From: Larkinella terrae
GTDB taxonomy: Bacteria; Bacteroidota; Bacteroidia; Cytophagales; Spirosomataceae
Assembly: GCF_009668025.1 (NCBI RefSeq)
Contig: NZ_WJXZ01000001.1
Location: 687,004-751,003, forward strand
Direction of reading: 5' to 3'
Length of the DNA: 64,000 nucleotides
Numbering within the stretch: position 1 is the first letter of the stretch; each line of letters opens with the position of its first letter. Under the pieces are notes generated by a model. The model was not told where the DNA came from and did not search any database. It was given only the letters and a program-made list of their open reading frames with translations. The position numbers and the translations under genes are program-made. Below are positions 45,776 through 60,631 of this stretch, in pieces.

Positions 45776-46546
45776 TTATCTGGAACTATACTGGTTTACT
45801 GCAAAGCGGGAAGCACTATTTTCAAACAAGATGGCAAGGGATTGACCCGACAACTGTGGCTCCAAGTGCTCAGTAGGTCCATACCCAATTGTTTCGGTAG
45901 AATCATTGGTGAGTGCTGAAAAAACGTGATCGCAAAACTCATCCAACTCTACGCCATGCTGTTGGCCTTCTCCCGCCAGATTCGTTAGTACTGCCGGGGG
46001 AATGAGTTCGATCACCCGGCAGGAGGTGTTGGCCAGGGCGTGTCGCAAGGTCATGGTATAACTGTGAAGTGCCGCTTTGCAGGCACTGTAAATCGGGGCA
46101 AACGGTTGGGGAATGTAAGCTCCTCCCGAAGTGACATTGACGATCCGGCTCGGTTGAGCATGTTTCATTAGCAACGGGATGAGTAAATGATTCAGGTGGA
46201 TGGGACCCGACAGTAGAATATCAATTTCTTGCTGTCGCTGCTGCCAGGGAGCCGTATCCTGGGCTAAGGAAACCCGGCGCTGAATCCCTGCATTATTGAT
46301 AATCCAATGCAAGGGACTCATCGTCTGGGCCACATACTGCGCCAGGGCTTCCCGGTCGGCGGGTTGGCCGATATCGCTCACGAAAGTTTTTAAGCCGGGT
46401 AATTCAGCAGCAGCCTTTTTGAGTTTATGCTCATCTCGCCCCGTTACCAACACTTGACTACCCCTTTGGAGAAAGCGAGTGGCTAATCCGTAACCAATTC
46501 CTTCGCTACCGCCCGTAATGAGCACATTGGTGTTTTTCAAATCCAT
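45776..46546 (-). CDS. Short-chain dehydrogenase (DltE-like)
   Basis: The 256-residue Rossmann enzyme has the nucleotide-binding TGGSEGIGYGLA, the catalytic Tyr153-x3-Lys157 (YSACKAAL) and the Ser of NVTSGGAYI. It reads most like DltE-type SDRs. It probably uses NAD(P)H; the substrate is unknown. It lies 72 bp downstream of an AraC-type regulator on the same strand that may control it. Confidence 0.88.
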   Translation of the reverse strand: MDLKNTNVLITGGSEGIGYGLATRFLQRGSQVLVTGRDEHKLKKAAAELPGLKTFVSDIGQPADREALAQYVAQTMSPLHWIINNAGIQRRVSLAQDTAPWQQRQQEIDILLSGPIHLNHLLIPLLMKHAQPSRIVNVTSGGAYIPQPFAPIYSACKAALHSYTMTLRHALANTSCRVIELIPPAVLTNLAGEGQQHGVELDEFCDHVFSALTNDSTETIGYGPTEHLEPQLSGQSLAILFENSASRFAVNQYSSR

Positions 46547-46617
46547 TTTTCATGCTGGTTGAATCTGGCTCAAAAGTACGAGCGGGCTACTGAATAAAAT
46601 GGTCATGATTTAAGGAT

Positions 46618-46983
46618 TTAGGTCCGTTCGCGCTGAAAGGCTTTCGGGGTAGTGCCGCTAATGCGTTTAAACCATTTGGTAAATTGGGAGGGCTCAAAAT
46701 CAAGGATTAAGGCAACCTCCTTCACCTTTCGGTCCGGTTCCAACAGGAGTTGCCTGGCCACTTTTACAATTTCCAGCTGGAATACTCCGCAGGCCGATAA
46801 ACCGGTCACTTCCTTAATCGTAGTACTCAAATGGATGGGATGAATACAAAGCTGATCGGCGAAATCCTGGATATCTAACATGGTATCGGTTTTCTCCTTC
46901 ACCAGTTCGGTTAAATGCGTCTGAATCAGTTGAAGGTAGCGTTCGTAGAGTTGAATTGGCTGCTTTTTAGGCGTTGATGGCAT
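46618..46983 (-). CDS. AraC-type transcription regulator
   Basis: The ATG at 46983 (MPSTPKKQPIQLYERYLQLI) is chosen; an upstream ATG at 47070 would add a Cys-rich 29-residue tail that is unlikely. The body is a stand-alone AraC DNA-binding domain of 121 residues: first helix-turn-helix DIQDFADQLCIHPIHLSTTIKEVTG, second VKEVALILDFEPSQFTKWFKRISGTTP. No sensor domain is present. It probably controls the adjacent SDR gene. Confidence 0.82.
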   Translation of the reverse strand: MPSTPKKQPIQLYERYLQLIQTHLTELVKEKTDTMLDIQDFADQLCIHPIHLSTTIKEVTGLSACGVFQLEIVKVARQLLLEPDRKVKEVALILDFEPSQFTKWFKRISGTTPKAFQRERT

Positions 46984-47064
46984 AACGATAGGTTTTGGTA
47001 GAAGACGGGTTTTGAAGGCACATAACACCAATTGGCAGGCATACGGTTTCTCAAAATACCCTCC

Positions 47065-47081
47065 TTTCATGACGCACCAAA
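47065..47081. repeat. 17-bp repeat, copy A
   Basis: TTTCATGACGCACCAAA, found again at 47620 beyond the VOC gene, with further similarity to the left (CTC before a variable base). The two copies flank one gene. Confidence 0.6.
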
Positions 47082-47733: not shown

Positions 47734-49008
47734 TTAGGCAGACAGATTCTTTTTTACAATTGCCATGGTTTCACGCTGACGTTGTGTGATGTATTTTCGG
47801 GCCTTCTCAACTTTTGCTTTAGCCGCTTTGGGGTCTTTGGCCATCGCCAGGACCGTCGGAACGATTTTCGCTACGTCGCCGGGCGTGTCCATGTCGAACA
47901 GCCAGTCACCCAGGCCAACATCGCGCCACATGGCACCTTTGCTGGTCTGCTCTTCAAACCGGCAAACGATTGCCGGAACGCCCTGGGCAATGCACATGAT
48001 GGGCGAGTGCATTTCCAGCCCGAACAATCCCGCCGACCGGATATAGGTACTGACGGCTTCATCGGTCAGCCAGTAATGATCACGCCAGACCACGTTCTTT
48101 TTTACGTCCTCCGGTAGCGGATCGTAGAGCATTTCTTTGCCGATACGGACCTGGGTTTCGTTTTCGGGCACCAGCAGCACCTTCAGGGGCGTTTGCCGAA
48201 CCACCTGAATGATGGCTTCCCGGATGGGTGCGTTGTCCTGCTCTTTCATTTTGTCGTTATACGCCCGTTTGGCTTCGTTGGGAGCCTGTTTTTTCTGGGG
48301 CAACTCCCACCAGGGCGAGAACCGGTATTGGGGGATGGCACACAGGAATTTGCCGGTTTCCAGGTTATGTTCCCGCAAAAACGCATCCGCTGCTGCGTCG
48401 TTCCGAACATCGACGGCAAAAGCACCATCGGGGCAAAACTCCATGATGGGGCAGTTTACCCCGTTTTTCTTCGCAAACGCCAGCGAAACCGAGTCGCGGA
48501 AATACGCAAACCGGGCTTTGCTCAACAGGCCGATATCGACCGGATTGAATTTGCTGCGCTCTTCGGGGAAGCCATAAACGCCGGGAAACGTAATGCCGTA
48601 GATGCCGTAAGGTTTACCGGTTTCCTGCACCCAGCGTTCCAGGTCCTTGCGGGCAACCAACTGCGGACCGGAGCCATGGAGCAAAAAACCGCATTCGGTA
48701 AATGCTCGGGCAACCTCGTCGGGCGACTGAATAATGGGCACGTTTGGAAACCGTTTACGCAGCATGGCTTCCACGCCATCGCCCACGTTAACTGGCCAAA
48801 GCCGCACTTCAACGCCGGGCAGGTATTTTTCCAGCAGCGTCAGCACACCGGGGGTATGGCCGATGTCGCCAATATTGGCGGTTTGCCACGAGGATCGAAG
48901 CAGGATCGGTTTGGTAGCCAGATTGCTCGCTTTCAGGCCAGGGATCATCCCCAAAAGGAGACTGGCCAACGGAGGGACCTGCTGCAGAAAAGCGCGTCGG
49001 TTCAGCAT
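47734..49008 (-). CDS. Exported polysaccharide pyruvyl transferase-family protein (1)
   Basis: The 424-residue protein has a twin-arginine-like leader (NRRAFLQQVPPLASLLLG) and so should be extracytoplasmic. The body matches the polysaccharide pyruvyl transferase family: NIGDIGHTPG (45-54), LLHGSGPQL, and the late GLEMHSPIMCIAQGVPAI with His334. Classical members act in the cytoplasm with PEP, which is not expected in the periplasm, so a different reaction on a pyruvylated or other glycan is plausible. It is the last gene of the PUL operon and is closely similar to the next upstream gene. Confidence 0.8.
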   Translation of the reverse strand: MLNRRAFLQQVPPLASLLLGMIPGLKASNLATKPILLRSSWQTANIGDIGHTPGVLTLLEKYLPGVEVRLWPVNVGDGVEAMLRKRFPNVPIIQSPDEVARAFTECGFLLHGSGPQLVARKDLERWVQETGKPYGIYGITFPGVYGFPEERSKFNPVDIGLLSKARFAYFRDSVSLAFAKKNGVNCPIMEFCPDGAFAVDVRNDAAADAFLREHNLETGKFLCAIPQYRFSPWWELPQKKQAPNEAKRAYNDKMKEQDNAPIREAIIQVVRQTPLKVLLVPENETQVRIGKEMLYDPLPEDVKKNVVWRDHYWLTDEAVSTYIRSAGLFGLEMHSPIMCIAQGVPAIVCRFEEQTSKGAMWRDVGLGDWLFDMDTPGDVAKIVPTVLAMAKDPKAAKAKVEKARKYITQRQRETMAIVKKNLSA

Positions 49009-49060
49009 GTTTTAGGAAATCATTATTTGAATAAAAAATGCATTGATTACGGAATTGCGG

Positions 49061-50362
49061 CTACGCCATTACCTGTTTCTTCACATAGCCCATCGTTTCG
49101 CGCTGCCGTTTTTCAACGAACTGACGGGCTTTGGCCGCTTTCGCGCGGGCGGCTTTGGGGTCTTTGGCCATCGCCAGAACCGCTGGCACGTACCGCGCGA
49201 TGTCTTCTTCTTTGTCAAAATCGAACAGCCAGTCGCCCAGACCAATATCTTTCCACATGGCGCCTTTGCTGGTTTGCTCGGCAAACCGGCCAACGATTGC
49301 GGGAATCCCGTTGCCGATGCACATGATCGGCGAATGCATTTCCAGCCCGAACAGACCTGCGGACCGGATATAGGTACTGACGGCTTCGTCGGTTAACCAG
49401 TACCGGTCGCGCCAGACCACTTTCTTCTTTACATCATCTGGTAACGGATCGTACAGTATTTCTTTGCCGAGTTTGACCTGTGTTTCGTCTTCCGGACAGA
49501 TCAAAATTTTGAGGGGCGTTTGCCGGACCACCTGAATAATCGCTTCCCGCAGAGGGGCGTTGTCGTGTTCCCGCATGGCCTGATTCCGGTCGTGCCGGGT
49601 TTGATCGAACGGGGTTTTCTTGCTCGGGATTTCCCAGTAGGGCGTAAAACGGGTCCGCGGGATCACGCACATGAACTTGCCCGCTTCCAGCCCGTGTTCG
49701 TTCAGGAAGGCCGTGGCGACCGAATCGTTCCGCAGGTCGACGGCAAAGGCCCCGTCGGGGCAGAATTCCATCACGGGATTATGAACGCCGTTCTTTTTGG
49801 CGAAATCCAGGGAGATGGAATCCCGAAACAGGGCAAACTTCGCTTTGTTCAGCATCTCGACGGCCTGCGGATTGGGCGTCACCATCGCTTTCGGGTCGGG
49901 GCTGTAGACCCCCGGAAACGTAATGCCGTACACCCCGAACGGTTTTCCGGTTTCTTTATCCCACCGAACCACGCTGCTGGTTGCCACCAGCGAGGGGCCG
50001 GAACCGTGCAGCAGAAACACGCATTCTTTAAACGCCTGCTCGATTTCCTCCGGCGTTCGGATGATCGGTACGTTCGGAAACCGCCGACGCATCAGGGGTT
50101 CTACCCCGTTGTCGAGGCTCGACGGCCACAGCCGCACTTCAACGCCGGGCAGGTATTTTTCCAGCAGCGCCAGAACGCCCGGCGTGTGCCCGATATCGCC
50201 AATGTTGACAGTTTGCCAGGACGAACGGAGAATAATCGATTTTTTGTCGGCCGGACGGTCTGAGGCCGATTGCGCCAGCGCCGGAATAGCGCCAAGAAGC
50301 CCGATCAGTGCGGGCGTTTGTTTGAGAAACTGACGACGGGTTGAGGTACTTAGGCTGTTCAT
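49061..50362 (-). CDS. Exported polysaccharide pyruvyl transferase-family protein (2)
   Basis: The 433-residue protein has a strong twin-arginine-like motif TRRQFLKQ and a leader ending AIPALAQ. The family motifs are the same as in protein 1 (NIGDIGHTPG, LLHGSGPSL, GLEMHSPIMCIGNGIPAI with His343, TSKGAMWKDIGLGDWLFD). The two are clearly tandem duplicates, with long matched blocks (AIIQVVRQTPLK, YWLTDEAVSTYIRSAGLF). It lies 52 bp upstream of protein 1 and 10 bp downstream of protein 3. The reaction is unknown. Confidence 0.8.
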   Translation of the reverse strand: MNSLSTSTRRQFLKQTPALIGLLGAIPALAQSASDRPADKKSIILRSSWQTVNIGDIGHTPGVLALLEKYLPGVEVRLWPSSLDNGVEPLMRRRFPNVPIIRTPEEIEQAFKECVFLLHGSGPSLVATSSVVRWDKETGKPFGVYGITFPGVYSPDPKAMVTPNPQAVEMLNKAKFALFRDSISLDFAKKNGVHNPVMEFCPDGAFAVDLRNDSVATAFLNEHGLEAGKFMCVIPRTRFTPYWEIPSKKTPFDQTRHDRNQAMREHDNAPLREAIIQVVRQTPLKILICPEDETQVKLGKEILYDPLPDDVKKKVVWRDRYWLTDEAVSTYIRSAGLFGLEMHSPIMCIGNGIPAIVGRFAEQTSKGAMWKDIGLGDWLFDFDKEEDIARYVPAVLAMAKDPKAARAKAAKARQFVEKRQRETMGYVKKQVMA

Positions 50363-50372
50363 ATTGACTAAT

Positions 50373-51683
50373 TTACGACGCTAATTTAACGAGTTTACGC
50401 ACGACCTGCATGGACGCTTTTTGCCGCTCAGCGACCACCAGCATGGCTTTTCGGGCTTTTTCTTTCGCCTGTGGATAGTCCTGGTGAATCTGCATCAACG
50501 TCGCGTTCATCGTTTCCGCCGACGTCTTGTTGATATCGAACAGCCAGTCGTTCAGCCCAATGTCGCGGAACATCCAGCCCTTGCGCCCGTGCCAAAGGGC
50601 GCGGGCGTGGATAACCGGGACTCCCAGGGCCAGGGCCATGATGAGTGAGTGGGGTTCCATGCCAACCAGGGTGTGAGCCCGGGCGAAAACCGACATCGCT
50701 TCGTCGGCGCTCCAGAATTGCTCGCGGAAAACGACTTTGGCTTTCACCTCATCGGGGAGGGTGTCGTAGAGCAGCGTACGACCGTATTTGGTTTCTTTAA
50801 GCGATTCGGGAGCAATCAGGACCTTCAGCCCGGTTTTTCGCACCCAATTGGAAATCAGCTGGTTCATCTTGGCCATCCAGTCAAGGTTTTCGGCTTTCTG
50901 CTCCGGGGTTGGCTCGGCGGGGTTTAGCAGGTTCCCTTTACCGGCGCCATCGAGCGGGGGCGTGTTGGTTCGAATGACGACCGTTAGAAATTTGCCCGCT
51001 TCCAGCCCGTTCTGCTTCAGATAAGCCACCCCTTTTTCTTCATCGCGCACGTCGATGCCAAAGCAGCCGTCCGGCCCGAATTCGAGCACCGCAGGTTTGA
51101 ACTTGTTTTCGTTCAGGTACTTGAGCGATTCTTTGTCGCGGGTGTAGATAAAGGCGGCCTGGTTCAGCACATCGCGGTAGATCAGGTCGGCGGGTGACGC
51201 AAATTTGTCAAACGACTGCCCATACAGCCCGAACGGAATGTTTCGCTCGCGGCAGTAGAGCATCGGGGCCAGATGCGACATCGTATTGCCCCATTCGAAA
51301 TTGAACAGACCGTAATTCATCGACATACCCGAATTGTGGATATACAGACTGGCTTCATTGAAGGCTCTGGTGACCGGGCTATCGGGCTTGTCTGGCTCAA
51401 ACCCACCGGAAATCAGCCGAACTTTCGGGAAATTCTTAGCGACCAGTGCTTCGGTTACGGGGCGGGGAGCCGCGTGCCACAACAGAATCTGGGCTTCGGG
51501 CACATACCGTTCCAGCAACCGCAGCGTGCCCGGTGTGTGTCCAATGTCGCCAATGTTCTTGTCATTCCACGACGACTTGAGCAGGATGATCGGTTTTGCA
51601 TCCGGACGTGATCGACGGAGGGGAAGCGCGGTGGCGGCCATCGACAGGCCGGATAGTTTAATAAAATGTCGGCGTGAGGTCAT
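50373..51683 (-). CDS. Exported polysaccharide pyruvyl transferase-family protein (3)
   Basis: The 436-residue protein starts MTSRRHFIKLSGLSMAATALP, a twin-arginine leader. It is the most diverged of the three: NIGDIGHTPG is retained, the late His is in GMEPHSLIMALALGVPVIHAR (His345), and the region after it carries extra His/Arg (ALWHGRKGW). It is 6 bp downstream of the PL8 lyase, so it is almost certainly cotranscribed. Divergence from proteins 1 and 2 suggests a different substrate position or step. Confidence 0.8.
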   Translation of the reverse strand: MTSRRHFIKLSGLSMAATALPLRRSRPDAKPIILLKSSWNDKNIGDIGHTPGTLRLLERYVPEAQILLWHAAPRPVTEALVAKNFPKVRLISGGFEPDKPDSPVTRAFNEASLYIHNSGMSMNYGLFNFEWGNTMSHLAPMLYCRERNIPFGLYGQSFDKFASPADLIYRDVLNQAAFIYTRDKESLKYLNENKFKPAVLEFGPDGCFGIDVRDEEKGVAYLKQNGLEAGKFLTVVIRTNTPPLDGAGKGNLLNPAEPTPEQKAENLDWMAKMNQLISNWVRKTGLKVLIAPESLKETKYGRTLLYDTLPDEVKAKVVFREQFWSADEAMSVFARAHTLVGMEPHSLIMALALGVPVIHARALWHGRKGWMFRDIGLNDWLFDINKTSAETMNATLMQIHQDYPQAKEKARKAMLVVAERQKASMQVVRKLVKLAS

Positions 51684-51689
51684 ACAGCA

Positions 51690-53936
51690 TCAGGCTTTAG
51701 GAAAGTTTTGAACCAGTGACCGGCCCGCTTCTGCCCCCTCCGGAAAGGTGAAGGTCGTCACGATGGGCTGTGCGGAAGCAACTGTATCCTGCACCCGGAC
51801 CAGCACCTTCCCGGCCCGGTGCGTCGGGTTTCCGACGGCGAGGGTCCAGCGCCCGTTGGCGGTTCGTCGCCATTGGACGATACAGGGTTGATCGACTTCC
51901 AGTTTGCGCTGGTCCGGCAACACCAGCGCACCGGGTTTCCAGAAGATTCCCTGCACAAGGTCCGGGGTAGCAATGGCCTGTAAGGTGGGCGTATTGGAAA
52001 CGATGGTCGGCGATTTGGTTTTGCTGAAAGCAGCAATGTCGGAAGGTGCCAAACCGGGTGCCACCACGTAGCTGTACTTGAAACCTTCTTTTGCGGCATT
52101 TTCGTGTTCGATCCAGAGACTAAACACCTCCCCCTCAACAGCCGCGGGCGGATGGGCGGGGTCCTCCCGGGCATCCCGGTGCGGAGCCGTATTGAGCGTT
52201 TTCCACGGAGCCGATTTGCGTTCGGTGCGGATGCGCAGGTTCGACGGCTGCGGAAACAGGTACGTTACCCCGTCGTGGTGAACCCAGCCCGCCGTTTTGT
52301 GTGTATGGGTTTCGTCGGCGGCTAAGGCAGCGGTGTTCATGCTCGTCGTGACGGGGCCTTTCGCCCAGCACTGGTTCACACTCGTTACCACGGGTAAGGT
52401 GGAATCGTAGGATTTGATGGCGGCCCCCAGGCACACAACTACCTCATCCAGGAAAAACCAGGCCTTCAGCGCGTGCAATCCTCCCCGATGCACCTCCATA
52501 GCGGCTGCGCCTGACGTTCCATCCGAAACGCCACCCGCCCAATCGCTGCCGCCGTACGAACCGATGCCCCAGCTATGCAGCGGCAACGGGACGGCCGGAT
52601 TATAGACACAACTCACCCCCGGAATCCGGCGCCAGTCCCAGAGCGGGAAAATATCCCGGTATTCCTCTCCGGTCTGCATCAGACACATCGCCCCATCGCC
52701 CAGGTGATAGCCCAATTCGTTCTGTTTCCCGCCCGACTCGTGGCTATACACCCGGCGCGACGACATTCGGGCCGAAGCATGAAAACCGGGTCGGTTGTGC
52801 GCCATGTAGTCCGACATCCAGAATAACCGGTTGCCAGCGGGAGCGGTTTTGGCTTCAGTCTCACCCCGTAGTCGTCGGGCAAACGCCTGGAGTTCAGCCT
52901 GGCGCTTGCCGCCGAAGGGGATGAGGTGGTCGCAGGCAGCTTTGGCCCCGAAACCGGAATCATGATCGGGGCCGTGCTTCAACGGCCAGGCCACCATCCG
53001 CCCCACGGTGGTAAAATCAAGCGAACGGCCCCGCGTCAGGGGCTGCAGCCCGTCAAGGACGTAGCGGGTTAGTGTTTCCAGTTTGTCGGGCGCAAAGGCG
53101 AAAGCGGTTTTATGCAAGGCGAGCGCTAACGCCGTTGCGTCGCGGGCAAATCCAAGGCCGTAGAGTCCCCCGGAATAAAACTGGGGACCGTGCTGGTGGA
53201 AACTGAAATCAACCTGAATGCTTTCGGACCGACCCGGCCCAATTTCCTGCTCTGCCTGTTTGGTGTAGCGGGCGACGTAAGCCGGATCATTCGCTAAACA
53301 ACCGGCCATCACCTGAATGGTGGCTTCATGCATCAGGTTTTCGCCGGTCGCCGGAGAGCCGGAATAGTCCAGTACTCCATCGGGACGCACGCAGGTTTTA
53401 AGGATGGTTACAACCTCCGCTTTTTCAGAAGCGGACAGTTCGTTCCCCATTATCAGGGCGGCCTGTCCCAGCGCTAAAGGCGATCCAATCTGATAAAACC
53501 AGCCCGCCGAGGGGGGATGGGGCTTGCCCAGCCATACGCCCAGTGACCGGTGCAGGGCGTCGGCCAATTGGGTGCGTTGCGAGCCGGTGGCCGCGTAAAA
53601 GGCTCCGGCCAGTTTTAGGATTCGGGTGCAGTGGCCGTATCGCTTGACCCCTTCGTGTTCGGGTTTGAACTGCGCTTCCAGGTCGGGCCAGTGACCCGTC
53701 GGATCCAGGGTACGGAGCAACTGATCGACACTGATCCAGTTCGCTTCCGGCGCGATGACCAGGGACTGGTCGGCCATTCGTTGCCGGATAAGCGCCAGTT
53801 CGGGAAGGGCATCCGTCGTGCCAATCCATTGGCTCAGGCTGAATGCCGGCCCGGCCAGCCCCAGGCTCCCCACCGCGCCGGTTGTCGATTTAAGAAAGGT
53901 ACGACGGTTGAACAACCGTTTATTTACTTCGTGCAT
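51690..53936 (-). CDS. Polysaccharide lyase family 8 (exported)
   Basis: The 748-residue enzyme has a twin-arginine leader (NRRTFLKSTTGAVGSLG). The N-terminal helical toroid contains the PL8 active-site pattern: Asn200 (GENLMHEATIQV), His249 and a Tyr at 254/259 in FSFHQHGPQFYSGGLYG, and Arg in TRGRSLDFTTVGRM. A beta-sandwich follows (HLGDGAMCLMQTGEEYRDIFPLWDW, then a C-terminal domain). PL8 covers hyaluronate, chondroitin AC and xanthan lyases, which cleave by beta-elimination at uronate sites. The subfamily cannot be fixed here. It lies 48 bp after susD. Confidence 0.9.
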   Translation of the reverse strand: MHEVNKRLFNRRTFLKSTTGAVGSLGLAGPAFSLSQWIGTTDALPELALIRQRMADQSLVIAPEANWISVDQLLRTLDPTGHWPDLEAQFKPEHEGVKRYGHCTRILKLAGAFYAATGSQRTQLADALHRSLGVWLGKPHPPSAGWFYQIGSPLALGQAALIMGNELSASEKAEVVTILKTCVRPDGVLDYSGSPATGENLMHEATIQVMAGCLANDPAYVARYTKQAEQEIGPGRSESIQVDFSFHQHGPQFYSGGLYGLGFARDATALALALHKTAFAFAPDKLETLTRYVLDGLQPLTRGRSLDFTTVGRMVAWPLKHGPDHDSGFGAKAACDHLIPFGGKRQAELQAFARRLRGETEAKTAPAGNRLFWMSDYMAHNRPGFHASARMSSRRVYSHESGGKQNELGYHLGDGAMCLMQTGEEYRDIFPLWDWRRIPGVSCVYNPAVPLPLHSWGIGSYGGSDWAGGVSDGTSGAAAMEVHRGGLHALKAWFFLDEVVVCLGAAIKSYDSTLPVVTSVNQCWAKGPVTTSMNTAALAADETHTHKTAGWVHHDGVTYLFPQPSNLRIRTERKSAPWKTLNTAPHRDAREDPAHPPAAVEGEVFSLWIEHENAAKEGFKYSYVVAPGLAPSDIAAFSKTKSPTIVSNTPTLQAIATPDLVQGIFWKPGALVLPDQRKLEVDQPCIVQWRRTANGRWTLAVGNPTHRAGKVLVRVQDTVASAQPIVTTFTFPEGAEAGRSLVQNFPKA

Positions 53937-53984: not shown

Positions 53985-55430
53985 TCAATAGCCCGGATTC
54001 TGCACCAGTTTCGGGTTCGCATCCATGTCGGTCTGCGGAATCGGAAGCAGGTTGTGGAAAGGCTGAATGGTGGCGTTTCGGTTAAAGCTGTTTTCCGCTT
54101 TAACGGCTTCCACCAGCCGGTTGGTGCGAACCAGGTCGAACCGTCGGCTATTTTCACACGCCAGTTCCAACCGGCGTTCGAGCCAGACAGCCTCTCTGAA
54201 CTGGGCAGCGGAAAGCCCTTCGAGTGGCATTAATCCGGCCCGGGTCCGCACCCGGTTCAGGGCTGCGTACGCTTCGGGGGTTGGGCCATTATTGGCTTCA
54301 TTCAGGGCTTCGGCCTGCATCAGCAACACGTCGGCAAAGCGGAGGATGGGAATACTGGTCCCTTCCCCGCCGGAGGTTTTGGCGGTTTTATCCCACAATT
54401 TCTGGAACGAAACCGCTTTGGTCGGGTCCGGGTCGGTCACCGAGAGGTTGGTCGTTACGTTATTGTATACGTACGAGGTCAGGACGGTAACGGCTTTCCG
54501 CTTATCCGCTGCGGTGTAGGCATTGAACAGCGACGCACTCACGCGGGCGATCCCCGCTCCGCCACTGGGATAGATCAGCGCCTGCCGAACCCCGAAATTA
54601 CGCCCAATGCCGTGGCCCCGCACATCGGTTATGTATTGCACCTCGAAGATGTTTTCGCGTCCGCCCCGGGCCGACAGCGCAAACGCATCGGCGAAGTTCG
54701 CGTAGAGATCATACACCCCCAGATCAACCACTTCCTTCGCTTTTGCGGCCGCCTGGGCCCAATACGGTGAATTGGGAGTCGTACCTGCTCGGGTCAGATA
54801 TACTTTGGCCAAGATCCCTTTGGCCGCTCCCTGCGTGGCCCGGCCCGTTTCGGCGGCTGAATAGCTCTTGGGCAATACGCTCTCGGCCTCCTTCAGGTCG
54901 GCTTCAATCAGGGCGTAGATATCCGCCACCGGCGATCTGGCTATTTCCAGGCCATCCAGGGAAGCCGTCTCGGCTGTCACTAAAGGAACATCACCGTAAT
55001 ACCGGACCAGGTTGAAGTAGTGGAGGGCCCGCAGGAATTTTGCCTCGGCTACGTACCTTTTCTTGAGCGCTTCGTCCATCGCAATGCCCGGTAACCGATC
55101 GATCACGGTGTTGGACCGGTTGATTCCCCGGTAGGCGGGTACGTAAGCTCCAATCAGCGAATTGGCCGGAGTAAGGTTGTACCGCCAGAGTAGCGGGCGG
55201 TTGGCGTCGCCCGTCAGAAACGGAATGGCATCGTCGGTCGTGGTGATGTCAATGTTGGGGTCGAGGTTCCCAATGGCGTTGTAACAGGCCCCCAGTGCCG
55301 CCCGGGCATCATCTGCATTTTTGTAATAGGTGGCATTGGTGAGGTTGGTCACGGGCGACAGGTCCAGCTGGCTTTCGCAACCGAACGCCAGAAACGCCGG
55401 AATGGTGAGTAAAAGACGAATATTTTTCAT
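53985..55430 (-). CDS. susD: SusD/RagB-type glycan-binding lipoprotein
   Basis: The 481-residue protein has a lipobox ending AFGC (Cys18). The SusD fold is recognisable: TYYKNADDARAALGACYNAIG near the start, ALHYFNLVRYYGDVPLV (TPR-like), and RTRAGLMPLEGLSAAQFREAVWLERRLELACENSRRFDLVRTNRLVEA near the end. It binds oligosaccharides at the cell surface and forms the lid on the SusC transporter. It starts 14 bp after susC ends. The natural ligand is unknown. Confidence 0.95.
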   Translation of the reverse strand: MKNIRLLLTIPAFLAFGCESQLDLSPVTNLTNATYYKNADDARAALGACYNAIGNLDPNIDITTTDDAIPFLTGDANRPLLWRYNLTPANSLIGAYVPAYRGINRSNTVIDRLPGIAMDEALKKRYVAEAKFLRALHYFNLVRYYGDVPLVTAETASLDGLEIARSPVADIYALIEADLKEAESVLPKSYSAAETGRATQGAAKGILAKVYLTRAGTTPNSPYWAQAAAKAKEVVDLGVYDLYANFADAFALSARGGRENIFEVQYITDVRGHGIGRNFGVRQALIYPSGGAGIARVSASLFNAYTAADKRKAVTVLTSYVYNNVTTNLSVTDPDPTKAVSFQKLWDKTAKTSGGEGTSIPILRFADVLLMQAEALNEANNGPTPEAYAALNRVRTRAGLMPLEGLSAAQFREAVWLERRLELACENSRRFDLVRTNRLVEAVKAENSFNRNATIQPFHNLLPIPQTDMDANPKLVQNPGY

Positions 55431-55444
55431 GAACGCAGGTCGGT

Positions 55445-58400
55445 TTAGAGTTTCAGGTTCAGGCCAATTAATAAGGTTTTAGCGGCTGGATACCCGCCAT
55501 AGTCAATCCCCTGGCTGAGCGACGAGCTGCCGTAGCGATTGACTTCCGGGTCGTAGCCTGTATACTTGGTGAACGTCAGGTAATTCTGAGCCGCCACGTA
55601 GACTTTGACCGACGAGAATGCTGCCCGATTAACCCAGCGTGTCGGCAGCGTATACCCCAGCGAAATATTTTTCAGGCGCAGGTAAGAACCGTCTTCCACG
55701 TGCAGGCTTGACAGCAGCCGCGATCCGCCGGCAGCATTGGCGCGAGGAATGGTATTCCCGCCTTTGGTGGGTGTCCAGCGTTCCAGCACCCGCGCCGACT
55801 GGTTGTTCCCGCCCGTCAGGTTAATGAGATCGAATGTCGCATAGTTGATGATTTCGTTGCCACTAGACCCCTGAAAAAAGAGATTCAGGTCAATGCCTTT
55901 GTAGGAAAAGGTATTGTTGAAACCCCCGAAAAAATTGGGATTGGCATTACCGATGATATCCCGGTCCAGGTCGCTGATTGACCCGTCGCCGTTTATATCT
56001 TTATAGCGAAGGTCACCCGGTTTTGCCGTTTTCTGCGCCGAAGCATCTACTTCAGCCTGGGTCTGAAAGATACCGTCCGTCACCAGACCGTAGAAATTGC
56101 CCAATGGGCTGCCTACCCGCAGCAGAATCGGGTTCTGCCCCGTGTTGGAGATGGTCGCGTCGGAGCCGGTTCGAAACTCCTGTCGGCCATCGAGGGTCAG
56201 GATTTTATTCCGGTTGAACGAAATATTGAACTCCGACGTCCAGCGGAAACCGCCCCGGTCCACGTTGATGGTGTTGAGGGACAGTTCGAAGCCCGTGTTG
56301 CGAACGCTACCAATGTTTTTGAGCGTGTTGGCAAAACCGGACGAGGTGGGCACGCTTACACTGAAGAGAAGATCGGAGGTCAGCTTGTTGTAGTAATCCG
56401 CCGATACCTGAAGCCGGTTGTTGAACAGGCCTACATCGAACCCGACATCGAATTGCGCGTTTTTCTCCCAGCGCAGATCGGGGTTGCCGATGCCACCGGT
56501 TGCGGCACCCACCTGCAAGGCTCCCCCGATGACGTAGGGTGCCGACGCAATGTTGGCTAAGTACTGGTAGTTCCCGATTTCCTGATTTCCCGATAAGCCG
56601 TAGCTAACCCGGATTTTAGCATCCGACACGCCCGACAGGTTCTGCATCCACGGCTCGTTGGCCAGTTTCCAGGCAAAAGCTCCCGACGGAAAGAAACCGA
56701 ATTTGTTCGCTGGACCGAAGCGGCTCGACCCGTCACGACGGCCGGTGAGCGTAAACAGAAAGCGGTCTTTGAACGAGTAATTGACGCGGGCCAGGTACGA
56801 AATGAGTCGCCATTGACTGGCCCCCGTGCTCGGAGCCACCAGCGTAGATCCCGATCCTAAGTTATTATACAGGGCGAAATCATTGGCAAAGGTGTTCGCG
56901 TTGGCATCCACCGATTCCGAATTGATTCCCTGAAAAGTGTAACCAACCACGGCGTTGACGGTGTGATCGGTACCCAGTTGTCGGCTAAAGTTGAGGGTAT
57001 TCTCGTTCAGCCAGTTAATGGATTGCGTCGAACTCACCGATCCGCTGCCCCCCAGACTAGCCCCCAGCGTGGCCAGCCTGGTAACGTAAAAATTGTTTTT
57101 TGAGGTCTGTAAATCCGCCCCGAGGCTGGTTCTGAACGTCAGCCCATCCACGATTTTTACATCCAGGTAGGTGTTGGCCAGCAACCGGATCAACGAGGTC
57201 TGGTCGGTAAATTCGTTGACCATGGCAACCGGGTTGTCGGCACCCAGACCGTTGAGTACGCCCACGTTTTTATAGTAGGTACCGTCGGCGTTATAGATGG
57301 GAAAGGTTGGGGAGAAATTGAAAGCAGAAGCGATCACGCCGTCGACGGCCCGGTTGCCGGCCGTCTCCGTTCGCGGGCCATTGCTGACCGTGTAAGCCCC
57401 CTGAATGGTCATCCCTATTTTAACCCGCGACGAGAGTTCGTTGTCGAAGTTGGTGCGCAGGGTGTAGCGCTTGAAACCGGAGCGGGGAATGATCCCATCC
57501 TGATTGAAATAACCGGCCGAAATCGCGTACCGGGCCGTAGCCGACCCACCCGCCACCGAAAGCTGATGGCTTTGGATGGGCGCATTCCGCAGGACGGTGC
57601 GCTGCCAGTCGGTGCCTTCACCCAGGGTGCTGGCCAGCGGCCGGTCGGCGGAACTGCCGTCGAAATACGGTTTGCCGCCGTTGTTGGTCTGGGCTTCGTT
57701 CACCAATTCCGCAAACTGGCGTGCATTGAGCAGTGGAATAAGGTAGCGGGGAGTTTGGTTTCCATAGTAGCCATCGTAACTGACAACCGCCTTGCCGGTC
57801 TTCCCGCGTTTGGTCGTCACGAGGACGACTCCGTTGGAGCCCCGAGAGCCGTAAATGGCCGTCGCCGACGCATCTTTCAGCACTTCGATACTCTCAATAT
57901 CGTCCGTATTGATCGAGTTCAGGTTTCCGGTCGGGAAACCGTCGATCACATACAGGGGGTCGTTGCTGGCGTTAACCGACCCCGAACCCCGGATGCGAAT
58001 GGTGGAACTGCCGCCCGGCCGGGCTGAATTCGTTACTACCTGCACCCCGGCCGCCCGGCCCTGCATCGCCCGGTCGAGGGAAGCAATCGGGGTGGCTTTT
58101 ATGTTGGCTTCACCCACCTTGGCCACCGAACCGGTCAGATCCGATTTTTTGACCGTACCATAGCCCACCACGACGACTTCGTCCAATGATTTTTCATCGG
58201 CTTTCAGTCGAACGGTCAGTGTCGATTGCGAACCGACGGATACTTCCTGTTTTTCGTAGCCCACATAACTGAAAACCAGCACGACAGCTTCGTTGGGAAC
58301 CTGAATCCGAAAGGCTCCGTCTTTGTCCGTCGTGGTTCCACGGGTTGTTCCTTTCTGAATAATGCTGACGCCCGGCAACGACTCGTTCCGGGCGACATCC

Positions 58401-58891
58401 GTCACAGTTCCACTGATGGTCCGATCCTGGATCAATGACGAACCCGTTGGAAATGCCGCCGACGCGAACGATTGCTGCGGTTGCGTCTCTGCATTCGTGG
58501 AGGCTGAGGTGACCGGTTCAGCGGTTTTGGTTTCGCCGGTTGACTTTGTTTCCGGACGTTTCCGATCCCGGCTGTAAATCAGGTACGAATGCGGATTGTT
58601 TTTTTCAACCACCAGGTTGAACGGGGCCAGCAGGGTTTGCAACGTACGCTCCAGGGATCCCGATGCGTTGGTGACCGGCGCCACAAATTTATCTTTCAAT
58701 TCCCGGCGGTTGTAATCAAAGACAACGTGGTGCTGTTTTTCCAGATTTTTCAGGACATCGATTAAAGCCTGCTGATTCTGGCGGTTTGTTTGCTGCGAAC
58801 GGGCCGATGCCAGGGCCACGTCCTGACCGATAGCGGGCAAACCGGAATGCAACAAACCGATGACGGCCCAGATAAGTACTCGTGTTTTCAT
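55445..58891 (-). CDS. susC: SusC/RagA-type TonB-dependent transporter with STN domain
   Basis: I take the ATG at 58891 as start (MKTRVLIWAVIGLLHSGLPAIGQ, a good signal peptide); the longer frame from 58957 would overlap fecR by 44 bp. From that start, an STN domain (about 38-100, ALIDVLKNLEKQHHVVFDYNR) receives signals for the anti-sigma factor. A carboxypeptidase-regulatory-like domain follows (ISGTVTDVARNESLPGVSII), then the plug (VVVVGYGTVKKSDLTGSVA) and the beta-barrel. The STN domain together with adjacent fecR and an ECF sigma gene indicates trans-envelope regulation of this operon. Confidence 0.93.
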   Translation of the reverse strand: MKTRVLIWAVIGLLHSGLPAIGQDVALASARSQQTNRQNQQALIDVLKNLEKQHHVVFDYNRRELKDKFVAPVTNASGSLERTLQTLLAPFNLVVEKNNPHSYLIYSRDRKRPETKSTGETKTAEPVTSASTNAETQPQQSFASAAFPTGSSLIQDRTISGTVTDVARNESLPGVSIIQKGTTRGTTTDKDGAFRIQVPNEAVVLVFSYVGYEKQEVSVGSQSTLTVRLKADEKSLDEVVVVGYGTVKKSDLTGSVAKVGEANIKATPIASLDRAMQGRAAGVQVVTNSARPGGSSTIRIRGSGSVNASNDPLYVIDGFPTGNLNSINTDDIESIEVLKDASATAIYGSRGSNGVVLVTTKRGKTGKAVVSYDGYYGNQTPRYLIPLLNARQFAELVNEAQTNNGGKPYFDGSSADRPLASTLGEGTDWQRTVLRNAPIQSHQLSVAGGSATARYAISAGYFNQDGIIPRSGFKRYTLRTNFDNELSSRVKIGMTIQGAYTVSNGPRTETAGNRAVDGVIASAFNFSPTFPIYNADGTYYKNVGVLNGLGADNPVAMVNEFTDQTSLIRLLANTYLDVKIVDGLTFRTSLGADLQTSKNNFYVTRLATLGASLGGSGSVSSTQSINWLNENTLNFSRQLGTDHTVNAVVGYTFQGINSESVDANANTFANDFALYNNLGSGSTLVAPSTGASQWRLISYLARVNYSFKDRFLFTLTGRRDGSSRFGPANKFGFFPSGAFAWKLANEPWMQNLSGVSDAKIRVSYGLSGNQEIGNYQYLANIASAPYVIGGALQVGAATGGIGNPDLRWEKNAQFDVGFDVGLFNNRLQVSADYYNKLTSDLLFSVSVPTSSGFANTLKNIGSVRNTGFELSLNTINVDRGGFRWTSEFNISFNRNKILTLDGRQEFRTGSDATISNTGQNPILLRVGSPLGNFYGLVTDGIFQTQAEVDASAQKTAKPGDLRYKDINGDGSISDLDRDIIGNANPNFFGGFNNTFSYKGIDLNLFFQGSSGNEIINYATFDLINLTGGNNQSARVLERWTPTKGGNTIPRANAAGGSRLLSSLHVEDGSYLRLKNISLGYTLPTRWVNRAAFSSVKVYVAAQNYLTFTKYTGYDPEVNRYGSSSLSQGIDYGGYPAAKTLLIGLNLKL

Positions 58892-58913
58892 AGGGGTAAA
58901 GGATAGAAACTGA

Positions 58914-59900
58914 CTACTCAATGATGTAATGATCGCCGTCGAAGGTGACGGTGACACCGTAAATTTTTTCGATTTTGCTCAGTACCTGCTTCACATCATT
59001 GGCCGGAATTGAACCGCTGAATAATTCACGGCCAACCGTTGGATTGCGCAACTCCACTTGCAACCCGTGACTGTCCCGGATTTCCTGAAGCACTTCAGAA
59101 ACAGGCTGATCGGTGAAAAGCAGGATGGATGTTTTCCAGGCGAGTTCGCGGGGGAGATTGGCCCGAATGGGCTTTAATTGCCTTGTAGTCTGGGTGTAAC
59201 GAACTTCTTCGCCGGGTTGCAGCGTGTACGTTTTCTGGGCGGGGTCGGTCACTTTAACTTTTCCTTCCTGCAAAACAACCTGCGTCGTACCCCGGCGGTT
59301 TTGTACGTTAAACCGGGTACCTAACACCTCGATAGCTACCTGATCGGGTGTATGAACGACAAACTTCTGGTGATTGCGGGTGTGTTGGACCCCGAAAAAA
59401 GCTTCGCCTTCCAGCCAGACATCCCGTTGGCCGGTTTCGGCCCAATCGGCCGAAAACCGCAGGGATGAATTGCCATTGAGCGTCACCACCGACCCATCGG
59501 GCAATTCCACCGTACGTTGTTCGCCAAAAACCGTCCGGATGGTTTGTGGCCCGGTCAGGTGTTGATAAAACAGCAATCCCGAAACCAGCAGCACAACTGC
59601 GGCAGCCGCCCAGCGTACGACTGGAAGTTGTGACAACCGCCCGGATTTAGATACCAACGGAACGGTCTTTTCAGGTTTATTCGTTGCCTTTTCGTCGAGC
59701 GGTTTTTCGTCGAGTTGCTGCCAGATGCCCGACAACATCGTGTTGCGGAGAGACTGACGTTCTGTCTCGGAAAGCGAGCGCAGGTAGGAATCATCATCGG
59801 CGAAATGTTTCCACCAGCTTTCTAATTGTCGCTTTTCTTCATCGGTTGCCTTGCCGCGTACTAGTTTGCGGATCAGGCTTTGAAGGTATTGCTTGCCCAT
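58914..59900 (-). CDS. FecR-type anti-sigma factor
   Basis: The 328-residue protein has a cytoplasmic N-terminus (about 1-95), one transmembrane helix (AAAAVVLLVSGLLFYQHL), the FecR core (RTVFGEQRTVELPDGSVVTLNGNSSLRFSADW) and a C-terminal DUF4974-type domain (QPVSEVLQEIRDSHGLQVELRN). It holds the partner ECF sigma factor at the membrane until the STN domain of SusC signals. It is divergent from the sigma gene at 60044, with 143 bp between them, and stops 22 bp before susC. Confidence 0.93.
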   Translation of the reverse strand: MGKQYLQSLIRKLVRGKATDEEKRQLESWWKHFADDDSYLRSLSETERQSLRNTMLSGIWQQLDEKPLDEKATNKPEKTVPLVSKSGRLSQLPVVRWAAAAVVLLVSGLLFYQHLTGPQTIRTVFGEQRTVELPDGSVVTLNGNSSLRFSADWAETGQRDVWLEGEAFFGVQHTRNHQKFVVHTPDQVAIEVLGTRFNVQNRRGTTQVVLQEGKVKVTDPAQKTYTLQPGEEVRYTQTTRQLKPIRANLPRELAWKTSILLFTDQPVSEVLQEIRDSHGLQVELRNPTVGRELFSGSIPANDVKQVLSKIEKIYGVTVTFDGDHYIIE

Positions 59901-60043: not shown

Positions 60044-60631
60044 ATGTCCAGGTGGTCTTTACCCGATAGCGCAACCGAATCGGAATGGCTGCAGGCCCTG
60101 AAAAGGGGTGATCGGAATGCTTTTACCCAACTCTATGATTTCTACTGGCAGCGTCTTTTTACGGTAGCCTACAATTACACCCGATCCCGGGAGACGGCCC
60201 AGGAACTGGTTCAGGAAGTTTTTATGAGTTTATGGGTAAAGCGGGAAGAACTGGTGGTGCGAACCAATCTGGAAAGTTATCTGTATGGCGCCATCCGGTT
60301 CCGGCTGTACGACTTGCTGGATAAACAGAAAAGCGCCAGTCTCTATGCAGATTATGCGGCCTACACCCAGACCGCGGCCGAAGAAACCACCGAACAGCAA
60401 CTGGCCTTCGCCGAAACCACCGCCCTGATTCAGCAACAAATCGATGGGTTTCCGGAAACCACGCGGCAGGTTTTCCTGTTAAGCCGCTTTGAGGGACATT
60501 CCGTTGCCCAGATTGCTGAAAATCTGCATCTATCGCCCAAAGCCATCGAATACCACATTACCAAAGCCCTTCGACTGTTGCGACTGCATTTGACGGACAT
60601 CTGCCTGTTGGTTGCTATATTTGGGTTGTAG
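60044..60631 (+). CDS. ECF RNA polymerase sigma factor (Bacteroidota type)
   Basis: The 195-residue sigma factor has region 2 (AFTQLYDFYWQRLFTVAYNYTRSRETAQELVQEVFMSLWVKRE) and region 4 (LSRFEGHSVAQIAENLHLSPKAIEYHITKALRLL) with the usual spacing. It is the partner of the divergent FecR and should direct transcription of the susCD operon. In most loci of this kind the sigma gene is in the same direction as fecR; the divergent order means that the shared 143-bp region holds both promoters. Confidence 0.94.
   Translation: MSRWSLPDSATESEWLQALKRGDRNAFTQLYDFYWQRLFTVAYNYTRSRETAQELVQEVFMSLWVKREELVVRTNLESYLYGAIRFRLYDLLDKQKSASLYADYAAYTQTAAEETTEQQLAFAETTALIQQQIDGFPETTRQVFLLSRFEGHSVAQIAENLHLSPKAIEYHITKALRLLRLHLTDICLLVAIFGL

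Follow-up and report, generated by a model that had tools for sequence, protein, structure and literature searches.

Gene cluster of Larkinella terrae

The stretch of DNA analyzed in this study, hereafter the window, consisted of 64,000 nucleotides of Larkinella terrae (contig NZ_WJXZ01000001.1, positions 687,004 to 751,003). Its minus strand carried, in this order, the genes for a FecR-type anti-sigma factor, SusC, SusD, a lyase of polysaccharide lyase family 8 (PL8) and three proteins of the polysaccharide pyruvyltransferase family PF04230, which are referred to as A, B2 and B1, respectively. The intergenic gaps were 48 bp between SusD and PL8, 6 bp between PL8 and A, 10 bp between A and B2 and 52 bp between B2 and B1. 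An earlier note on this window had described four consecutive genes, PL8 and the three PF04230 genes, that lay 6–52 bp apart behind susCD and began with twin-arginine-type leaders. This description was borne out, and its coordinates were exact.

Genes A (50373..51683; 436 amino acid residues), B2 (49061..50362; 433 residues) and B1 (47734..49008; 424 residues) were all on the minus strand. Their products scored 79.4, 27.8 and 32.5 bits, respectively, against PF04230, all above the curated cut-off of 25.3 bits. In a six-frame search of the genome, B2 scored 24.2 bits. At an E-value of 0.001, no further PF04230 gene was found in the genome of L. terrae. The window is closely related to Larkinella rosea, whose homolog of protein A was 97% identical. 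A was 40 and 38% identical to the other two proteins, and the identity between B1 and B2 was 68%. The three tandem genes had been taken for a triplication in the earlier note. Three PF04230 genes are indeed side by side; they are, however, unequal copies, comprising a divergent A and a closer B1/B2 pair. When the three genes were compared with their homologs of loci L005 and L006, the ratios of nonsynonymous to synonymous substitutions (dN/dS) were 0.05–0.09 (0.05–0.07 for B1), with dS against L006 above 1. Therefore, the three genes are under purifying selection. In addition, a profile of the branch to which the three proteins belong matched a 72-residue C-terminal fragment elsewhere in the genome (G000:C22:390601-390819; L171), which was no more than about 1 kb from a short repetitive open reading frame (ORF) and is probably a decayed copy.

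Phylogeny, leaders and donor pocket of the branch

Among 222 genomes of the family of L. terrae, 81 had relatives of protein A, in a few cases just fragments; among 395 genomes sampled from the class, 2 did, one of them being the own genome. A profile built from 18 members matched 31 of 390 genomes of the order, six of which were outside the family, and 2 of 395 genomes of the phylum, again counting the own genome. The occurrence of the branch beyond the family is patchy. Outside the Bacteroidota, relatives were sought in a plasmid collection, which gave one match, in Nonomuraea.

Eighty-five loci were examined, namely the window, L005–L009 and L043–L121; genomes G442 and G444, which had fragments only, were not among them. 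The loci spanned up to about 21 kb and some ended at contig ends, so that absences from them are to be read as lower bounds. They contained 144 PF04230 ORFs, six of which were shorter than 400 residues (five fragments and the nearly whole protein of L058 with 398 residues). By BLAST score, the 138 full-length proteins were assigned to A (22), B (64) and C or other (52), and eight further members brought the set to 146. In a tree of these 146 members and five controls, the members grouped together (support of 98), and A formed a separate clade (support of 99), with B1 and B2 close to each other. The rooting of this tree is unsure because the five controls, on very long branches, and the Nonomuraea protein were all distant. 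The three genes of the window result from one old split between A and B/C and a later duplication of B. An A gene was present in 25 loci, 22 of which had a B or C gene as well; those without were L043 (with an adjoining partial B gene), L054 and L061 (at a contig end). B and C genes also occurred without A. Some A or B genes of the relatives looked broken or partial (L060, 10425-11775; L061, 5097-6198; L043, 8222-9136).

The leaders of the four proteins contained the motifs RRHF, RRQF, RRAF and RRTF, each followed by a hydrophobic stretch. The leader core of B1 (MLNRRAFLQQ...; 48967..49008, minus strand) was recognized by its RR motif and hydrophobicity. Models of twin-arginine translocation (Tat) leaders matched A (Pfam) as well as B2 and PL8 (NCBIfam), with every score under the cut-off, and the Tat models of Pfam and NCBIfam gave no match for B1. 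Because the scores were below the cut-offs or absent, the single leader sequences are not decisive. Across the branch, RRx[FVLIMW] was found within the first 60 residues of 130 of the 138 full-length members. In the same loci, the background of this motif was 1/68 for SusC, 4/71 for SusD, 3/57 for FecR, 9/55 for FecI and 52/556 for other ORFs of at least 200 residues. Moreover, none of 28 other Bacteroidota PF04230 ORFs had RRx[FIVL] among its first 45 residues. These counts indicate that the leader motif of the branch members is not a matter of chance. The two leader positions were Arg in 144 and 139 of the 146 members, respectively, which makes it unlikely that the proteins are cytoplasmic and their starts mis-called. 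L. terrae encodes one TatC. Export of the branch proteins is a well-supported prediction.

The characterized family members used for comparison were CsaB of Paenibacillus alvei and Pvg1p of fission yeast. In the accessible parts of the two reports, docking and mutants place R217, R337 and H339 (and K361) of Pvg1p and R148, R306, H308 and K328 of CsaB at the site of phosphoenolpyruvate (PEP), and D106 of Pvg1p at the sugar site (PMC10435577, PMC4872226); for CsaB R306, those parts describe docking and report no mutant (PMC10435577). In the alignment with 5ax7 (chain number plus 53), N103 and D106 were in an NxGD motif, R217 in an RD motif and R337 and H339 in RLH. Alignment of the branch profile with a profile of 12 controls (98.6%, E 1e-15) gave N43, D46, R182, E343 and H345 in protein A, of which R182, E343 and H345 (within 50373..51683, minus strand) map to the putative former PEP site.

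Ten residues, N43, D46, H49, S118, R182, D205, E293, E343, H345 and K368, were invariant in all 146 members, and H116 was found in 139. The PEP-site Arg and His (Pvg1p R217 and H339; CsaB R148 and H308) were therefore retained throughout as R182 and H345. The second PEP-site Arg of the ketal-pyruvyltransferases (Pvg1p R337; CsaB R306) was Glu in every member. Among 26 other Bacteroidota PF04230 proteins that served as controls (L125 and L144, with very long frames, were excluded from the counts, and L146, below the family cut-off, may be no true member), this position was Arg in 19, Ser in 5, Thr in 1 and Gly in 1, and Glu in none. His at position 49 was found in 0 and Glu at position 293 in 1 of these controls, vs. 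all 146 members; His at position 116 was found in 1 control. Arg at position 182 and His at position 345 were present in 25 and 26 controls, respectively. The earlier note had doubted that PEP, the donor of known pyruvyltransferases, is used by these proteins, and their PEP pocket was not of the complete conserved kind, given that Glu replaces one docked Arg in 146 of 146 members. The conserved residues would line one pocket.

The predicted structures of A and B2 matched the glycosyltransferase B (GT-B) fold, with confidence scores (pLDDT) of 82.1 and 83.7, respectively. Pvg1p was not among the 50 VIA-align fold matches listed for the two models, which is uninformative. By sequence, no credible solved homolog was found for A alone or for the branch profile; only the control profile reached 5ax7.

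Genomic setting and companion genes

In the window, the PF04230 genes were preceded on the minus strand by those for PL8 (51690..53936; 748 residues), SusD, an outer-membrane protein (53985..55430; PF07980, 131 bits), the SusC/RagA TonB-dependent transporter (55445..58957; TIGR04056, 971 bits) and FecR (58914..59900; PF04773, 70.7 bits). A divergent gene for an extracytoplasmic function sigma factor of the FecI type was beside FecR on the plus strand (60044..60631; TIGR02985, 136.7 bits). With a SusC/SusD pair, sigma and anti-sigma regulators and glycan enzymes, all recognized by profile matches, the cluster is a polysaccharide utilization locus (PUL) of the SusCD type. Downstream of B1, at 45776-47070, were a short ORF resembling an AraC-type DNA-binding domain by eye and an ORF like a short-chain dehydrogenase/reductase (SDR), for which no tie to the cluster was established.

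SusC and SusD were in the same gene run (same strand, gaps of at most 250 bp) as a PF04230 gene in 57 of the 85 loci, and 28 loci had no SusCD in the run. The first PF04230 gene was directly after SusD in 42 loci. In 29 loci, the PF04230 block followed SusD and closed the run, with the next gene either on the other strand or separated by over 100 bp. Three of the 85 loci, the window among them, contained PL8, as did L165, which belonged to a set of six additional loci from the order; given this rarity, PL8 was dropped as the core of the system. Other companions above their cut-offs, each in few loci, were flavin adenine dinucleotide (FAD) oxidoreductases and alginate-lyase, acetylesterase and glycoside hydrolase (GH) domains (GH28, GH10 and the C-terminal domain of GH38). 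Beta-helix proteins as well as heparinase-like and GH88-like proteins below the cut-offs were also found in few loci. The uptake system together with the PF04230 proteins, rather than the lyase, is the element that varies least between the loci.

Two groups of companions recurred. In L043, L069, L072 and L116, the PF04230 genes were accompanied by an FAD oxidoreductase of about 1054 residues, which began with a twin arginine, and by a partner of about 360 residues, for which the one member scanned had no Pfam match. In L045, L049, L051, L052 and L105, a weakly GH88-like protein came after the PF04230 genes, with a gene of the flavin mononucleotide (FMN) oxidoreductase family and an SDR gene nearby; three of these five loci also had a membrane protein resembling a gluconate-type transporter by eye. 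The latter loci perhaps encode a uronate or keto-acid route.

The relative of Nonomuraea gerenzanensis (L172, 11980-13269), at a locus unannotated in the record used, was 33.5% identical over 81% of the query and had the conserved residues of the branch. It was apparently leaderless, starting at the conserved domain, although this start was our own choice within a longer open frame. A divergent gene for a LacI-type regulator was beside it, and genes for an ATP-binding cassette (ABC) permease, a solute-binding protein and a heparinase II/III-type protein of 1136 residues followed. A leaderless form by an ABC importer and an exported form by SusCD would together favor a catabolic reaction free of PEP.

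All three PL8 domains (N-terminal, super-sandwich and C-terminal) were matched in the PL8 of the window, which also had the Asn, His and Tyr that the accessible part of PMC10992191 names as the catalytic sites of a xanthan lyase. The nearest solved relatives were chondroitinase AC (1hm2/1cb8), with E-values of about 1e-75, vs. about 1e-28 for xanthan lyases. In the alignment, the equivalents of N175, H225, Y234, R288 and E371 of chondroitinase AC were kept, and R292 and N374 were replaced by Trp and Gly, respectively. In the accessible part of PMC8733870, Arg292 and Asn374 contact the substrate in a docked model, and Arg292 is also suggested to aid catalysis. Thus, the PL8 may be active, given the retained catalytic triad and Arg288 and Glu371 equivalents, but its activity is uncertain because the residue suggested to aid catalysis is Trp. 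Given the loss of both contacts, a different substrate is likely, and chondroitin is unlikely to be the substrate. The earlier note had pointed from PL8 to xanthan and its pyruvylated mannose. That argument is weak: the enzyme is nearer to chondroitinase AC, and since PL8 is in so few loci, xanthan was dropped as the common substrate.

Candidate functions and comparison with known systems

From the gene order, leader motifs, conserved residues and distribution observed here, we infer that A, B1 and B2 belong to a separate branch within the polysaccharide pyruvyltransferase superfamily, with a GT-B fold and a route out of the cytoplasm by Tat. The proposal of the earlier note that the three proteins are exported and work without PEP finds support in the sequences, i.e., the Tat-type leader, the altered donor pocket and the glycan-uptake setting, and they probably are exported, PEP-independent, catabolic enzymes. 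They would have abandoned PEP-dependent synthesis and act in the periplasm on glycans imported by the neighboring SusCD under the control of FecI/FecR. In their pocket, the sugar-side N43 and D46 as well as R182 and H345 would have been kept, and the second PEP arginine would have become the invariant E343; H49 and E293, invariant in the branch, were rare or missing among the controls. Because the site retains its sugar side and some of its carboxylate side, the donor Arg is replaced by an acid and an export leader is present, the proteins may break rather than make a carboxylate-bearing acetal. Depyruvylation is the leading candidate for the reaction, if a tentative one: hydrolysis that frees sugars of a pyruvate ketal, or of a comparable group with a carboxylate, would be the reverse of the family's usual reaction. 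The full combination, in which Tat-exported GT-B enzymes have left PEP-dependent synthesis and most likely hydrolyze pyruvate ketals on SusCD-imported glycans in the periplasm, is our preferred reading and is proposed with the same reserve. In the window cluster, PL8 would open a uronate-containing chain, and the A and B/C paralogs may act on different positions or sugars. Somewhat more speculative is the broader idea of an exported depyruvylase family in which charge reversal of the PEP pocket turned a pyruvyltransferase fold into a ketal hydrolase, and of which one actinomycete or more would have a cytoplasmic form.

Several observations weigh against pyruvate-ketal hydrolysis. Arg at position 343 was not universal outside the branch (19 of 26 controls), and the sugar-side Asp at position 46 was found in only 15 of 26; because the controls vary there, both positions tolerate change. 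The equivalence of K368 and CsaB K328 is uncertain because Lys was aligned in only 4 of 26 controls, with 15 gaps. The retained pocket residues would suit any carboxylate ligand. Moreover, the companion enzymes differed between the loci and none indicates pyruvate, the best solved fold matches of the A and B2 models were UDP-N-acetylglucosamine (UDP-GlcNAc) 2-epimerases and other nucleotide-sugar enzymes, and the setting in Nonomuraea was observed at one locus.

Alternatively, the proteins may be exported GT-B enzymes that act on another glycan bond, cleaving or rearranging it in a glycosidase-, lyase- or epimerase-like manner, and may be the main enzyme of their small PULs. That the PF04230 block closes the run after SusD in 29 loci would be odd for a mere remover of decorations, and UDP-GlcNAc 2-epimerases were among the high-scoring fold matches of the models. 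The kept sugar-side Asp and the carboxylate-type Arg and His, however, suit a carboxylated sugar, and UDP-sugars would be unexpected beyond the cytoplasm; a reaction at another bond is possible but doubtful. A reused PEP pocket without its second arginine might also hydrate or hydrolyze the unsaturated uronates made by lyases, since their enol ether at C4=C5, with a carboxylate next to it, would, by our analogy, resemble PEP as a 2-alkoxyacrylate-type group. R182 and H345 are retained, and lyase-type companions were found in some loci: PL8, an Alginate_lyase domain (252.7 bits) and heparinase-like proteins (19.5 bits in Spirosomaceae, with a cut-off of 24, and 73.2 bits, over the cut-off, in Nonomuraea). 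However, many loci had no lyase in the run, a weakly GH88-like gene (19.2 bits, with a cut-off of 26.6) was part of the run in five, and elsewhere in the genome of L. terrae two GH88 matches exceeded the cut-off, so that we consider this reaction unlikely.

The position directly after SusD in 42 loci is customary for periplasmic glycan-binding proteins, and the PF04230 proteins might be non-catalytic ones. Such a role is also improbable, given the set of acidic, basic and His residues invariant in 146 of 146 members, although a binding site could be conserved as well, and given that the locus of the leaderless Nonomuraea relative has a solute-binding protein of its own. Finally, the proteins might be true pyruvyltransferases that modify surface glycans with PEP delivered to the periplasm. 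They belong to PF04230, 7 of 26 other PF04230 proteins also lacked Arg at position 343, and according to the accessible part of PMC4872226, Pvg1p receives imported PEP in the yeast Golgi. The replacement of the PEP arginine by Glu in all 146 members and the uptake-operon settings render this explanation very improbable.

Pyruvate ketals decorate many glycans. If pyruvate-ketal hydrolysis is correct, the branch would provide an enzyme specialized in taking pyruvate off such glycans. Whatever the reaction is, PULs in which a PF04230 protein is the sole enzyme of the run are at present unreadable, and the automatic label "pyruvyl transferase" is probably misleading for the genes of this branch. 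No literature linking proteins of the pyruvyltransferase family with PULs or export was found. In its accessible parts, a review of 2019 describes three non-overlapping sequence groups of pyruvyltransferases, cautions against predicting their function from sequence and makes no mention of an exported or degradative branch (PMC6801904). Similarly, no enzyme removing pyruvate ketals is named in the accessible parts of this review or of two papers on xanthan breakdown (PMC10881899, PMC12827396). A known route of degrading a pyruvylated glycan, likened here by description only, is that of a beta-galactosidase, which, in the accessible part of its report, frees the pyruvylated galactose as a whole unit (PMC6090015).

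Similar to chondroitinase AC, the closest solved PL8, the PL8 of the window has the catalytic Asn, His and Tyr; different from it, Trp and Gly are found for Arg292 and Asn374, and a Tat-type leader is present. Xanthan lyases, which act on pyruvylated mannose, belong to the same lyase family, but matched the PL8 of the window with an E-value of only about 1e-28. UDP-GlcNAc 2-epimerases are cytoplasmic nucleotide-sugar enzymes and differed from the models of A and B2 in sequence, with about 7–15% identity among the matches listed. The likeness to CsaB and Pvg1p comprises the PF04230 profile, the NxGD motif, the Arg of the RD motif, the His of the RxH motif and the GT-B fold, which Pvg1p has according to its paper and A and B2 have by model. 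Different from CsaB and Pvg1p, the branch has a Tat-type leader, Glu for the arginine of the RxH motif and the invariant H49 and E293, and it is found in a SusCD or ABC-import setting rather than one of polymer synthesis. The branch can thus be regarded as a new variant of a known superfamily, whose reaction is possibly new.

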